A stretch of DNA of 20,071 nucleotides, taken from a virus. Under the pieces are notes generated by a model that was not told where the DNA came from, did not search any database, and worked only from the letters and a program-made list of their open reading frames with translations. The DNA lies in the IMG/VR virus record IMGVR_UViG_3300010430_000562, positions 1 through 20,071 of that record; one strand, 5' to 3'. This document shows positions 2,943 to 15,836 of the stretch, piece after piece; the stretch's first letter is position 1; every line of letters begins with the position of its first letter. The position numbers and the translations under genes are program-made.

Positions 2943-3479
2943 ATGAAGAATCAGGATTTGCGACTATATGTTAAAGCTTTGAAATTTTGCATGACAGCGC
3001 ATGGCGACCAAAAGAGAAAATATACCGATGAGCCCTACTGGCATCATCCTGTAAGCGTTGCGACCATACTAATTGAAACCTGTATTTTTAATATAGATAT
3101 GGTTTGCGCTGCAATTTTACATGACACGGTAGAGGATACAGAAACGACTCAAGCGGACATTGAGGATAATTTCGGGCCAGAGGTGGCCGATCTTGTTCAT
3201 TGGCTTACAGATATTTCAAAACCAAGTGATGGCAATCGACAATACAGAAAGAAGCTAGACCGCTTACACCTAGCGAAAGCCCCAGCAGAGGCGCAGACAA
3301 TCAAGCTTGCAGACCTTATTGATAACTCAGAATCAATAGTTAAGCACGATCCTAGATTTGCCAAGGTTTACATGGAAGAGAAGGCGCTGCTATTGGATGC
3401 GCTCGATAAGGGCTCGCCTGTTTTGATGGCCAAGGCGCGCCGCATTGTTAATGAATACAATAGCTCAATTAAGGAATAG
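2943..3479 (+). CDS. HD-domain hydrolase of the MESH1/SpoT (ppGpp pyrophosphohydrolase) type, 178 aa
   Basis: Stand-alone HD domain with the full signature: His35 in PYWHHP, His60-Asp61 and Glu64-Asp65 in LHDTVEDT, and Asp124 in KLADLIDN. RKYTDEPY at about 25-32 matches the (p)ppGpp hydrolase substrate loop. It lacks the synthetase, TGS and ACT domains of RelA/SpoT, so it is MESH1-like in size. It would remove the 3'-pyrophosphate of (p)ppGpp or a related nucleotide using a bound metal. In a phage early region this could lower the stringent response or blunt alarmone-based defence; that role is inferred. SD AAGGA lies at good spacing; the next gene begins two bases after its stop. Another nucleotide substrate is possible. 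Confidence 0.85.
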   Translation: MKNQDLRLYVKALKFCMTAHGDQKRKYTDEPYWHHPVSVATILIETCIFNIDMVCAAILHDTVEDTETTQADIEDNFGPEVADLVHWLTDISKPSDGNRQYRKKLDRLHLAKAPAEAQTIKLADLIDNSESIVKHDPRFAKVYMEEKALLLDALDKGSPVLMAKARRIVNEYNSSIKE

Positions 3480-3781: not shown

Positions 3782-4189
3782 TTGAACAGATTGGATGTAA
3801 GATTGAATAAGGAGCTGTCCCCAAAAGTTTCCGCTCTAATGAAGGAGCGCAAGTGGAGCGGGCAGAGCACGGGGGAGTTTATTATTGAGGAATATTTTAG
3901 GTTTGTTGAGGAAATGGAAAAGCCTAAAAATAAACGAGCGGCCACTAAACGATTTAAGAAGCCGGAATGGGGGGAGTTGTCCCAGTACTTCTTTGAGCAA
4001 GGGTCTGTAGCCTGTCAGGATGACGCCACACGATTTATTGACTACTACGAGGCTAATGGCTGGAAGATTGGAAAGAACCCAATGAAGGACTGGAAGGCAA
4101 CAGTTAGAACATGGATTCAAAGAGGGAAAGAAAATGGACAATCAGGAAGCAAGGCAGCACTTACAAACCTTAACGACACGGATTTCTGA
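3782..4189 (+). CDS. Replication-associated protein: ribbon-helix-helix N-terminus with DnaT-like C-terminal motif, 135 aa
   Basis: The TTG start is chosen because GGAGG lies five bases upstream. Residues 1-45 fit a ribbon-helix-helix fold: strand RLDVRLN, helix KELSPKVSALMKER, a G-x-S turn and helix EFIIEEYFRFVEEME. After a basic linker (about 48-62), residues 65-120 carry a motif seen at the C-termini of phage replication/primosome proteins and DnaT relatives (FIDYYEANGWKIGKNPMKDW then KATVRTWIQRG). It overlaps the helicase-loader gene by 56 bases. It is likely to bind DNA and take part in primosome assembly; the two-part architecture is inferred from motifs. Confidence 0.65.
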   Translation: MNRLDVRLNKELSPKVSALMKERKWSGQSTGEFIIEEYFRFVEEMEKPKNKRAATKRFKKPEWGELSQYFFEQGSVACQDDATRFIDYYEANGWKIGKNPMKDWKATVRTWIQRGKENGQSGSKAALTNLNDTDF

Positions 4190-4823
4190 ATCTGAGCTAT
4201 TGGCGGTAAATAAGCAGCAGGATACAGAGCAAGATAGAAAGGTTATCAGTTATATCATTCATAAGCTTCAGGCCATATGCCCAGCATGGCAGCAGTCTTT
4301 GGCAGGAATGGCGCAGGGGGAGAAGGAGCAGTTACTAAAGACAATTAAGAGAGAGTGGCTCAATAGTCTAATGGCGGCAGGCATTAACGAGCAGAGAATC
4401 ATTGATTACGCCCTGAATAGAGTGAAGGAGGCGGGTAGCCCATTCTTGCCGACTATAGGCGTGTTTCTAGGCTACTGTGAGGAGGGTGATTTGCCAGCAG
4501 GCGTTAAGACGCCAGAGGGGTCGTATAAAGAAATCGTTGATTATCAATGCCTACCAAGGGAGAGGCGCCAGCCGATAGGGTTGTCACCAGAGGTCTGGCA
4601 CACATTGAACAATCTTGGTGATCTGCACTCATGGCGACATATGAATGTAGAGAAGCATAAAAAGTATTGGCTAGATGAATACAGAAGAACGCTCAAGCAC
4701 TTAAAAAGCGGGAATTCGCTGGATGAAGCGCCCCCGCCAAGAAAGGCGATTGAGAATAAGCCAACACCAACAAATAAAGATGACGCAATAAGCCGATTAA
4801 AGGCTATGCGAGATCGATTATAA
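4134..4823 (+). CDS. Lambda P-like replication protein (helicase loader), 229 aa
   Basis: Residues 60-116 resemble phage P proteins: a helical region with KREWLNSLMAAGI followed by SPFLPTIGVFLGYCEE, matching the FLPSxGxFxxWC element of the family. Length agrees with lambda P (233 aa). P-type proteins bind host DnaB helicase and deliver it to the initiator at the phage origin; the O-like gene, HNH gene and P order fits this. The C-terminal third is helical and basic with a proline-rich linker (EAPPPRKAIENKPTPT). The start lies inside the preceding gene in another frame. The TAA stop sits within a TTATAAC box that is the first element of an attC-like site. Confidence 0.8.
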   Translation: MDNQEARQHLQTLTTRISESELLAVNKQQDTEQDRKVISYIIHKLQAICPAWQQSLAGMAQGEKEQLLKTIKREWLNSLMAAGINEQRIIDYALNRVKEAGSPFLPTIGVFLGYCEEGDLPAGVKTPEGSYKEIVDYQCLPRERRQPIGLSPEVWHTLNNLGDLHSWRHMNVEKHKKYWLDEYRRTLKHLKSGNSLDEAPPPRKAIENKPTPTNKDDAISRLKAMRDRL

Positions 4824-4867
4824 CCACCATGTTAAACGGCGGCTGCGCCGTCCTTTTGAATTATTTG
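4818..4867 (+). other. Resident attC-like site, left part (attC0), split by two cassettes
   Basis: TTATAAC (4818-4824) covers the stop of the P-like gene. It is complementary to GTTATAA at 5323-5329, on the far side of the cassette array. Between lies a strong stem ACGGCG/CGCCGT (4836-4841/4846-4851) with TCCTTTTG after it, so it may also terminate transcription. The site ends at G4867, where cassette 1 begins. The outer arms pair less well than in the other two sites. Confidence 0.65.
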
Positions 4868-5076
4868 TTATTCGTCCGAGAGGTGAGTATGTACGTTGAT
4901 TTATGTCAGCACTGTAAAACAAGCATTTATTCTAATGATGACTATGTAAGCCACTCTAGTGGTAATTATCACATTGAATGCGCAGAAGAAATTAATCTAC
5001 CAGAAGATGAAATTGAAGACGAATAACCCCTGCAATATGCGGCTGAGTGAAACGAAGTCCAAGCATGATTGCTTTG
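4868..5076 (+). mobile_element. Integron-like gene cassette 1 (209 bp)
   Basis: The unit starts after G at 4867 and ends with G at 5076, both followed by TTR as in G^TT recombination. Its first bases with the preceding G (GTTATTCGTC) are perfectly complementary over 10 bp to GACGAATAAC at 5018-5027, which contains the ORF stop. When circularised, the end G and the start TTATTC would rebuild an R' box matching R''. It holds one 45-aa ORF with its own Shine-Dalgarno. This is the defining cassette arrangement; the mobilising integrase is not in the window. Confidence 0.78.
4889..5026 (+). CDS. Cassette 1 protein: small Cys/His (zinc-ribbon-like) protein, 45 aa
   Basis: The ATG at 4889 is chosen over the upstream in-frame ATG at 4829, because AGAGGTGAG directly precedes it and the upstream extension would lie inside the attC0 hairpin. 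The product begins MYVDLCQHCKTSIYS and continues to HSSGNYHIEC, giving a C-x2-C...H-x2-C set (Cys6, Cys9, His28, Cys31) able to bind one zinc. An acidic tail (EEINLPEDEIEDE) follows. Half-LIM/zinc-ribbon peptides of this size often mediate protein contacts. It is the only gene of the cassette, and its stop lies in the R'' box. Function unknown. Confidence 0.72.
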   Translation: MYVDLCQHCKTSIYSNDDYVSHSSGNYHIECAEEINLPEDEIEDE

Positions 5077-5082
5077 TTAGCT
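5021..5082 (+). other. attC1-like recombination site of cassette 1
   Basis: The outer box GAATAAC (R'') is at 5021-5027 and GTTAGCT (start of cassette 2 with the shared G) at 5076-5082. The inner arms fold as GCAAT (5032-5036)/ATTGC (5068-5072), ATGC (5037-5040)/GCAT (5063-5066) and GGCT (5041-5044)/AGTCC (5056-5060). Unpaired G5067, A5061-A5062 and T5058 all sit on one arm. Extrahelical bases on one arm are how integron integrases choose the recombining strand of attC. Confidence 0.75.
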
Positions 5083-5323
5083 GTTAATTTTGGAGACTGA
5101 AACATGAGTATGAATAAAGACATTAAACTATTAAGGGAAGCACTAAAAGCAACTGTAAAACAACTGAACGATGTTACGCCACTCCTACAGACTGACGAAA
5201 ATGGAGTGGGACCAGGTTGCACTGCCCACTTTCAGGCGTTAATTAATGCAAGCCACGCTTTAGAAGAGACTAAAGACAGCTAACGCCGAATTCAACGGCG
5301 CGAAGCGTCCTTTGAATGAAGTG
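5077..5323 (+). mobile_element. Integron-like gene cassette 2 (247 bp)
   Basis: Starts TTAGCTGT after G5076 and ends at G5323. GTTAGCTGT (5076-5084) is perfectly complementary over 9 bp to ACAGCTAAC at 5276-5284, which again contains the ORF stop codon. It carries one 59-aa ORF with GGAG at good spacing and a short attC. It is directly joined to cassette 1 in the same orientation. Confidence 0.78.
5104..5283 (+). CDS. Cassette 2 protein, 59 aa, unknown function
   Basis: The ATG is preceded by TTTTGGAGACTGAAAC (GGAG, spacing 8). The product is mainly helical: residues 3-29 (KDIKLLREALKATVKQLNDV...) form one amphipathic helix, a glycine-containing turn follows (ENGVGPGC), then a second helix (TAHFQALINASHALEETK). 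A helical hairpin of this size could bind another protein or a small ligand. I recognise no family. The stop TAA is within the R'' box AGCTAAC, as for the other cassette. Confidence 0.72.
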   Translation: MSMNKDIKLLREALKATVKQLNDVTPLLQTDENGVGPGCTAHFQALINASHALEETKDS

Positions 5324-5329
5324 TTATAA
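5278..5329 (+). other. attC2-like recombination site of cassette 2
   Basis: R'' AGCTAAC is at 5278-5284 and GTTATAA (G plus the original flanking sequence) at 5323-5329. The inner arms pair as ATTCAA (5290-5295)/TTGAAT (5312-5317) and GGCGC/GCG-T-CC around a GAA loop, with a bulged T in GTCC. The same bulged GTCC occurs in attC1. At 52 bp it is at the short end for attC sites. Confidence 0.72.
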
Positions 5330-5337
5330 AGGGAAAT

Positions 5338-5520
5338 ATGAAGTTAAACGAAGCGTATGATATTTTGAGAATTCATCAAAAGTGGAGAAAAGGCGACCAA
5401 TATCTAAAGCGGGTTCCGCCATTTGTTTTGAGTGAGGCTATAGATATGATTTTAAATGCTCACTACTCGGCAGAGATGACAATAGCAACTCCAAAGGGGA
5501 AAGAAGGTGAGGGCAACTAA
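5338..5520 (+). CDS. Hypothetical 60-aa protein
   Basis: The ATG lies eight bases after the right edge of the cassette array; its Shine-Dalgarno (AAAGGGAA) begins right at that junction, so the insertion left the gene intact. Product: helical N-terminus (MKLNEAYDILRIHQKWRKG), middle PPFVLSEAIDMILNAH, polar tail. No membrane segment. It overlaps the next gene by 14 bases. No family recognised. Confidence 0.65.
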   Translation: MKLNEAYDILRIHQKWRKGDQYLKRVPPFVLSEAIDMILNAHYSAEMTIATPKGKEGEGN

Positions 5521-5743: not shown

Positions 5744-5958
5744 CGATAGAAGAATTAGAGGTTCATTTTTCAATTAATGATAGCGATCCTTTTGCTAAAA
5801 GACTCTTTGAATTGGTGACGGAAATCAAGGTTGAGAGGGATGATCTATCCGATGAGCTTGAATCTGAAAGGTGTAATCTTGGCGAAAAGATTGAGGAGCT
5901 AGAAGAAGAGGTCGGGAGACTAGAAGAGGTTATAGAGGAGCTAGAAGATGAATCCTGA
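5716..5958 (+). CDS. Acidic coiled-coil protein, 80 aa
   Basis: GTG start preceded by AAGGAG nine bases away, inside the previous gene. Residues 1-35 form a mixed segment (NLTIEELEVHFSINDSDPFA). From about residue 37 to the end the sequence is a continuous glutamate-rich heptad coiled coil (ELESERCNLGEKIEELEEEV and onward). It should self-associate and may bind a basic partner. The end of this gene supplies the Shine-Dalgarno (GAGGAG) of the next. Confidence 0.65.
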   Translation: MHESIIANLTIEELEVHFSINDSDPFAKRLFELVTEIKVERDDLSDELESERCNLGEKIEELEEEVGRLEEVIEELEDES

Positions 5959-15095: not shown

Positions 15096-15836
15096 ATGCA
15101 GATCAACAAAGGCGACCTAGTGAATGGCGCTTATACCATTCTACGTATAAGCGGCCTCACATTAACAGCCAGCCCCGATGAAATTACAGCTGGTATTCAG
15201 GAATCGGATGACTTAGCGAGTGAATTAAAAGGCAGCGGCGTTGATGTTAATTGGCAGCAGCCTAGTGATTATGGGCTTAGTGATCCTGCGGATACTTCAG
15301 GTTTAACGCCTGAAATGGCTGGACCTTTTAAGAGTGTTCTAGCTCTTCGCCTTGTTGATCTATTTGGTAAGCAAGCAACACCGTCTTTAGCCAAGAGAGC
15401 TAGTGACGGGATGCGGACGCTAGAGCAAATCACGGTTAACGCTCCAGAATCGGAACTGCCTTCTACATTGCCATTTGGGTCAGGCAATGAGTGGGACTAT
15501 AGAAGCCGCCGATTCTACCCTGAGCCAGCCGCTAATAATGATGCTGATTATGTATTTCTTGATGATGTACTTAATTACACTGAAGATTTTAGCGCATGGC
15601 TTATTGACGAGGAGCTTGTGAGTGCGTCGTGGGAGGTTGCAAATGGCAGTGTTGAGATTGACAACGTAGTTAATGCAGAAACAACCTCAACCGCTCAATT
15701 GACCTTTTCGACTATTGGCGGCTTCACTCTTTGCATAACGGCAACCAAGACTAATTCGACCGATGTGTTCACAGTTCAAAAGAACTTTATAGTCAAGGAT
15801 TGCAATCGCCAAACTTATGGAATTATTACTCCATAA
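15096..15836 (+). CDS. P22 gp4-like tail accessory factor fused to an Ig-like domain, 246 aa
   Basis: Residues 1-140 resemble P22 gp4 (166 aa): INKGDLVNGAYTILRISGLT, a helical region with GPFKSVLALRLVDLFGKQAT, and LPFGSGNEW near 125-133, matching the gp4 PxGSGN element. Gp4 closes the portal ring after packaging and is the base for gp10 and the needle. Residues about 158-236 form a beta-rich domain (FSAWLIDEELVSASWEVANG, TAQLTFSTIGGFTLCITATK), an Ig-like fold often found on phage surfaces. The fusion would decorate the neck. AGAGG precedes the ATG. Confidence 0.75.
   Translation: MQINKGDLVNGAYTILRISGLTLTASPDEITAGIQESDDLASELKGSGVDVNWQQPSDYGLSDPADTSGLTPEMAGPFKSVLALRLVDLFGKQATPSLAKRASDGMRTLEQITVNAPESELPSTLPFGSGNEWDYRSRRFYPEPAANNDADYVFLDDVLNYTEDFSAWLIDEELVSASWEVANGSVEIDNVVNAETTSTAQLTFSTIGGFTLCITATKTNSTDVFTVQKNFIVKDCNRQTYGIITP

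Follow-up and report, generated by a model that had tools for sequence, protein, structure and literature searches.

Cassette arrays of the integron type have already been described in phages. Qi et al. (2023, PMC9892861) reported 17 integrase-less arrays (CALINs) in phages, and found that IntI1 recombined five of the six phage attC sites tested, two of them from phage H101 (PH101). The cassettes of H101 and TJE1 were described there as lying in one direction and as 'most typical' of bacterial arrays, and reversed attC sites were not mentioned. One of the published phages, MW202573 (our contig L196), is filed as Myoviridae and possesses a P22-like coat, portal and terminase; its published array lies opposite to the strand of its early genes. 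With regard to the recombination sites themselves, attC folding is favoured if the lagging-strand template carries the bottom strand (PMC8946536). Integron arrays are thus known from phages, one of which has P22-like head genes, and a first-pass annotation of the DNA studied here, which knew of few descriptions of such an array in a podophage early region, is partly outdated by the 17 phage arrays and by MW202573 with its P22-like coat and portal. Reversed attC polarity in phages is apparently unreported: no report of it was found in the open-access literature searched.

Here, we focus on an array carried by a P22-like phage. The window, namely the whole stretch of DNA analysed, comprises 20,071 nucleotides (positions 1 to 20,071 of IMG/VR record IMGVR_UViG_3300010430_000562) and is a fragment of a P22-like phage, in which the large terminase and the P22-type portal, scaffold, coat, gp4-like adaptor and gp10-like closure families were matched. 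By terminase, its nearest cultured relatives are Vibrio lentus phages. From position 4081 onwards, the window has a 99.99% match in a second IMG/VR contig, a 22.8-kb record of the same phage, and the phage genome is incomplete in the sequence examined, i.e., the window and this overlapping record. A replication region, including a lambda-P-type helicase loader (P gene), lies upstream of the array. Beside the replication genes, positions 2943-3479 encode an HD-domain phosphohydrolase (Pfam HD_4, E 1e-18) that may be SpoT/MESH1-like. Directly behind the stop codon of the P gene, three attC-type sites delimit two cassettes, one of 203 bp and one of 257 bp, and the locus is composed of the following features:

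4134-4823, plus strand: P gene, lambda-P-type helicase loader (Pfam PF06992, E 1.9e-14; PHROG 109).
4818-4873, minus strand: attC-like site 0, with R'' GAATAAC, L'' TTcAAA with a bulged C, a stem-loop, L' TTTAA and R' GTTATAA.
4824-5026, minus strand: cassette C, 203 bp between G^TT points, its ORF1 antisense to the cassette's own attC.
4889-5026, plus strand: ORF1, a 45-residue small protein with a CxxC..HxxxC pattern, ribosome-binding site GAGGTGAG, PHROG 33960 (E 1.4e-4).
5021-5082, minus strand: attC-like site 1, with R'' AGCTAAC, L'' GCAATcATGC with a bulged C, L' GCATATTGC and R' GTTATTC.
5027-5283, minus strand: cassette B, 257 bp between G^TT points, its ORF2 antisense to the cassette's own attC.
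5104-5283, plus strand: ORF2, 59 residues, ribosome-binding site GGAG.
5278-5329, minus strand: attC-like site 2, with R'' TTATAAC, L'' ATTCAA, a GGAC motif, L' TTGAAT, GGC and R' GTTAGCT.
5338-5520, plus strand: ORF3, the first gene past the array.

Very probably, this locus is a CALIN of two cassettes and three left-facing attC sites, located behind the P stop within a rightward early operon, with the cassette genes facing right. The first-pass annotation had recognised, in a P22-like phage, two early-region cassettes of the integron type with attC sites, which holds, but it had missed the site at 4818-4873, so that the site count rises to three. No integron integrase (TIGR02249) is present in the window or in the 22.8-kb record of this incomplete phage genome, and the locus consequently lacks, in both, the integrase gene that defines a complete integron. 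Three minus-strand attC sites within 512 bp, without an integron integrase in the sequence examined, correspond to the definition of a CALIN, and one that would need a host integrase, since none was found alongside it.

Compared with the phage CALINs TJE1, H101, P12002L and MW202573, the window likewise combines a short attC array with small genes and no integron integrase, but its three sites are weaker and stand at the stop codon of the P gene, unlike those of the published arrays. It shares with MW202573 the P22-like coat, portal and terminase, and the attC sites of H101 and MW202573 are also opposite to most annotated genes, whereas the polarity of TJE1 is normal. The chromosomal integrons of Shewanella, Marinomonas, Rheinheimera, Pseudidiomarina and their relatives display the same R''-L''-stem-L'-R' architecture, the AACAA and GGAC motifs, and pairing of the cassette start with its own R'' box. 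However, their gene and attC share a strand at 63 of 66 informative sites, and they adjoin an integrase, whereas the window genes are antisense and no integrase was found. A further likeness is to attG (G^TT) integration outside integrons, attributed to Loot et al. (2024): a G^TT in non-integron DNA, here the reversed TAAC of the P stop, is a possible entry site. Unlike in that process, the array is flanked on either side by a full attC rather than by a G^TT alone, and phages as a rule have the reversed polarity.

Recognition of the three sites was based on two models. The training set consisted of 80 bacterial loci around integron integrases, in which the attC sites upstream of the integrase were extracted by a strand-blind structure rule, and a position-specific profile was trained on bacterial attC sequences only, with orientation taken from the integrase and base pairing ignored. 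Among the 806 AAC..GTT pairs of the window, sites 0, 1 and 2 occupy the first three ranks, all on the minus strand, with scores on minus and plus of 22.8 versus 14.0 (site 0), 25.7 versus 6.6 (site 1) and 29.1 versus 18.6 (site 2); with a cleaned training set, site 0 scores 17.9 on minus versus 1.8 on plus. The hairpins could in principle be chance attC-like elements between genes of an operon, acting as terminators or in RNA processing or translation coupling, a reading to which their intergenic position lends itself. Terminators predict neither pairing from end to end across a gene nor R and L boxes, though, and after dinucleotide shuffling of the window the profile, with R- and L-box filters, returns 0.01 hits per 20 kb that score as high as the weakest of the three sites. 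In addition, 889 kb of other phage DNA contains no profile match scoring at least 15, and an Rfam search of the window returned no match, so that we hold this explanation to be extremely improbable.

The second model, a covariance model derived from 45 attC sites of bacteria, is of the kind that the first-pass annotation had put forward as a check. It ranks site 2 first in the window (17.1 bits, E 0.023) and site 1 second (13.4 bits, E 0.21), both on the minus strand, and does not properly align or recover site 0; the check thus supports two of the sites and leaves out the third. All three sites are therefore recognisable as attC by the profile, and sites 1 and 2, but not site 0, weakly by the covariance model. 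Bacterial and published phage attC sites, those of H101 included, mostly reach about 25-44 bits with this model, versus 13-17 bits for the window sites, which look like weak or diverged members of the class and may be decaying. An exact attC pattern derived from site 2 had no match among 85,000 bacterial genomes and, in IMG/VR, retrieved this phage alone. Elsewhere in the window, a minus-strand attC-like covariance match of 12.4 bits (15301-15360) falls within a structural gene and is probably due to chance.

All three attC sites are read on the minus strand, and the genes, those of the cassettes included, all on the plus strand. In a leave-one-out procedure, the profile gave each of the 83 bacterial sites its correct polarity by a margin of 25 bits or more, and the cleaned profile favours the minus strand by 16, 34 and 22 bits for sites 0, 1 and 2, respectively. 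Furthermore, the single bulged L-box base of sites 0 and 1 occupies the canonical arm only if these sites are read on minus. We rejected the possibility that the polarity is an artefact of bacterial training because the leave-one-out result and the side of the bulge are concordant. Unconstrained single-strand folding gave a weak or mixed outcome and did not separate the strands. Ordinary sense cassettes, in which the attC sites would lie on the plus strand and each gene would precede its own attC, constitute the layout implied by the first-pass annotation, and the orientation of the ORFs and the position of their stops in would-be plus-strand R'' boxes do resemble normal cassettes. This layout is nonetheless contradicted by the higher scores of the three sites on minus, by the two best covariance matches on that same strand and by the side of the bulge, and we consider it very unlikely. 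Since the attC sites are on the minus strand, the recombinogenic bottom strand is the plus strand, i.e., the coding strand of the phage, opposite to the strand previously proposed for folding. The window cassettes thus depart from the usual bacterial arrangement of gene and attC on one strand, but the antisense gene makes them a variant without excluding them from integron cassettes, as 7 of 106 bacterial cassettes are antisense as well.

The boundaries of the units are equally informative. The P gene aligns with PHROG 109 over residues 23-225 of 229 (23-226 of 236 in the family) and, because this alignment extends so close to the end, its C-terminus is the natural one. The TAA stop of P (4821-4823) lies inside the R' box of site 0, whose boxes, as read on the plus strand, are TTATAAC (4818-4824, holding the stop), a stem-loop and GTTATTC (4867-4873), and the array begins one base after the stop. 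Likewise, the TAA stops of ORF1 and ORF2 end exactly at the cassette edges, within the R' box (G^TTA read backwards); the edge coincides with the final base of the stop, since a TAAC in coding orientation reads as the recombination point G^TTA from the opposite strand. Each unit consequently has the layout of a reversed attC, a ribosome-binding site, an ORF and a TAA. On visual inspection, the hairpins are not followed on the plus strand by the run of T that marks a rho-independent terminator.

Both units are bounded by G^TT and have first bases complementary to their own R'' box, as in integron cassettes. The sequence GTTATTCGTC (4867-4876) is complementary to GACGAATAAC (5018-5027) over 10 bp, and GTTAGCTGT (5076-5084) to ACAGCTAAC (5276-5284) over 9 bp; these inverted boxes, the ORF1 and ORF2 stops inside them and the one-arm bulge of the hairpins are all found where the earlier annotation had placed them. 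The start of cassette C (GTTATTC) pairs with its own R'' GAATAAC at 7 of 7 positions, versus 5 of 7 with the neighbouring R', and that of cassette B (GTTAGCT) with its own R'' AGCTAAC at 7 of 7, versus 4 of 7. This pairing of each start with its own R'' is the strongest cassette-specific evidence, and it is the pattern expected of units moved by an integrase. It also bears on a different history, according to which the array was acquired as a block and is now a degenerate remnant that can no longer be recombined, its two genes having become ordinary early genes. The low covariance scores, the failure to align site 0, unpaired spacers that are longer than in most bacterial attC sites and the lack of cassette turnover in the near-identical second copy would all fit such a history. 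Against it stand the start/R'' pairing, perfect over 7 bases and reaching 9-10, and the bulged bases and L boxes retained in sites 0 and 1, and we regard a remnant as rather unlikely, albeit worth keeping in mind.

Removal of both cassettes would leave hypothetical flanks forming a single attC, with R'' TTATAAC and R' GTTATAA paired at 7 of 7 positions. This junction could be taken to mean that the whole circular phage is a giant cassette, inserted into a host integron through a single ancestral attC, made up of sites 2 and 0 joined together, in which two cassettes were later trapped; the perfect pairing of the first-site R'' with the last-site R' and the lack of an integron integrase in the sequence examined are compatible with it. 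Nevertheless, random pairs reach 7 of 7 in 5.9% of cases, no more than 4-6 positions pair in other phage arrays with 4-7 sites, the genome of this phage is incomplete and no such prophage was found, which makes this proposal very doubtful. A phage attC at L211 (4476-4531) has R'' and R' boxes paired at 7 of 7 positions and one other low-scoring site nearby, similar to the inferred cassette-less junction of the window phage.

As for the cassette genes, the ORF1 product looks, from its sequence, like a small metal-binding protein. A protein search of phages, plasmids and about 400 genomes revealed a single distant relative, at L194, in a mobile-element-like region without attC. ORF2 has no match in Pfam or PHROG and no relative in plasmids or 395 bacterial genomes, its sole IMG/VR match being the same phage. 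In the environmental phage contig L228 (5475-6510), three successive cassettes with the same antisense layout, hereafter mirror cassettes, encode small cysteine-rich proteins, like window ORF1. The search for the two units in related phages and host integrons, also suggested by the first-pass annotation, returned the same phage only: no bacterial integron carrying the window cassettes was found, nor any phage relative with a different or empty array, the only other copy being identical over the region. Neither P nor ORF3 has a close relative beyond this phage, and attC sites are absent from the phages whose replication genes are related.

The mirror layout was then compared between phages and bacteria. 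IMG/VR was scanned with two generic attC patterns blind to genes, the published phages were added, and each attC was called sense when an ORF of at least 60 residues ended in the R'' TAA, and antisense when it ended in the R' TAA. Beside intI in bacteria, 63 sites were sense-only and 3 antisense-only, versus 3 and 25 in phages (Fisher p 2e-16, the sites being partly non-independent, with several per array). A search of bacterial genomes with the same patterns, matched for ascertainment, gave 22 sense-only and 2 antisense-only sites; an artefact of the search patterns was rejected, since this matched control is biased the opposite way. Similarly, of 106 cassettes in integrase-adjacent bacterial arrays, 99 have their longest ORF in the same sense as the attC and 7 have it antisense. 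The mirror layout is therefore common in phage arrays and rare in bacterial ones.

Examples of it are found in L228, where genes end at 5870 and 6187 within R boxes, and in L209, L203, MW202573 and L227, whose array encodes a DNA methyltransferase; TJE1 and L205, and probably L202 and L221/L224, are exceptions with normal polarity. On the attC-bearing phage contigs, which belong to several phage types, there are genes for terminase, head, baseplate, primase or transposase, and none of the 12 such records tested contains an integron integrase. A stretch of about 110 bp in L228 (2740-2848) shares 83-87% identity with relatives of Staphylococcus phage K, although the contig is environmental, and is possibly an intron core. 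In H101 (L027, 25416-29280), our scan located four attC sites, opposite to most of the annotated genes, between the endolysin and RNR-beta genes, which are 3.9 kb apart. In three relatives of H101, about 1.1-1.3 kb without attC extends from endolysin to RNR-beta, and the H101 array is thus an insertion relative to these relatives, which keep the flanking genes.

The analysis establishes the sites and their polarity, the edges of the cassettes, the pairing of each start with its own R'', the lack of an integrase in the examined sequence and the recurrence of the mirror layout in many phages, and a scheme for the origin of the array can be proposed. A host integron integrase would have bound the folded plus strand of the sites, and the cassettes would have been inserted at G^TT, antisense across the P stop (TAA^C), an entry point that leaves P intact; a host integrase may still be able to move them. 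Being antisense to their attC sites, the cassette genes are co-directional with the early operon; the early promoter of the phage would drive their transcription, and each would use its own ribosome-binding site for translation. The mirror polarity may have been kept because upstream phage genes stay intact and cassette genes run with the operon. If the operon is co-directional with the replication fork, this layout would, hypothetically, also place the bottom strand on the lagging-strand template and favour mobility.

On a broader scale, we can tentatively propose that diverse phages share their own pool of mirror-polarity cassettes, exchanged via host integron integrases, although we rate this as possible rather than probable. 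As TAA-C doubles as an antisense G^TTA, such cassettes would enter harmlessly behind a gene and join its operon, and they would be backwards and silent in bacterial integrons. If the mirror layout of phages is true, tools and annotators presuming one strand for gene and attC would misread these cassettes, and attC sites placed behind phage genes at TAA-C stop codons represent a candidate origin of new cassettes. There may then be a pool of cassettes on the phage side, with phage promoters driving their genes and host integrases moving them.
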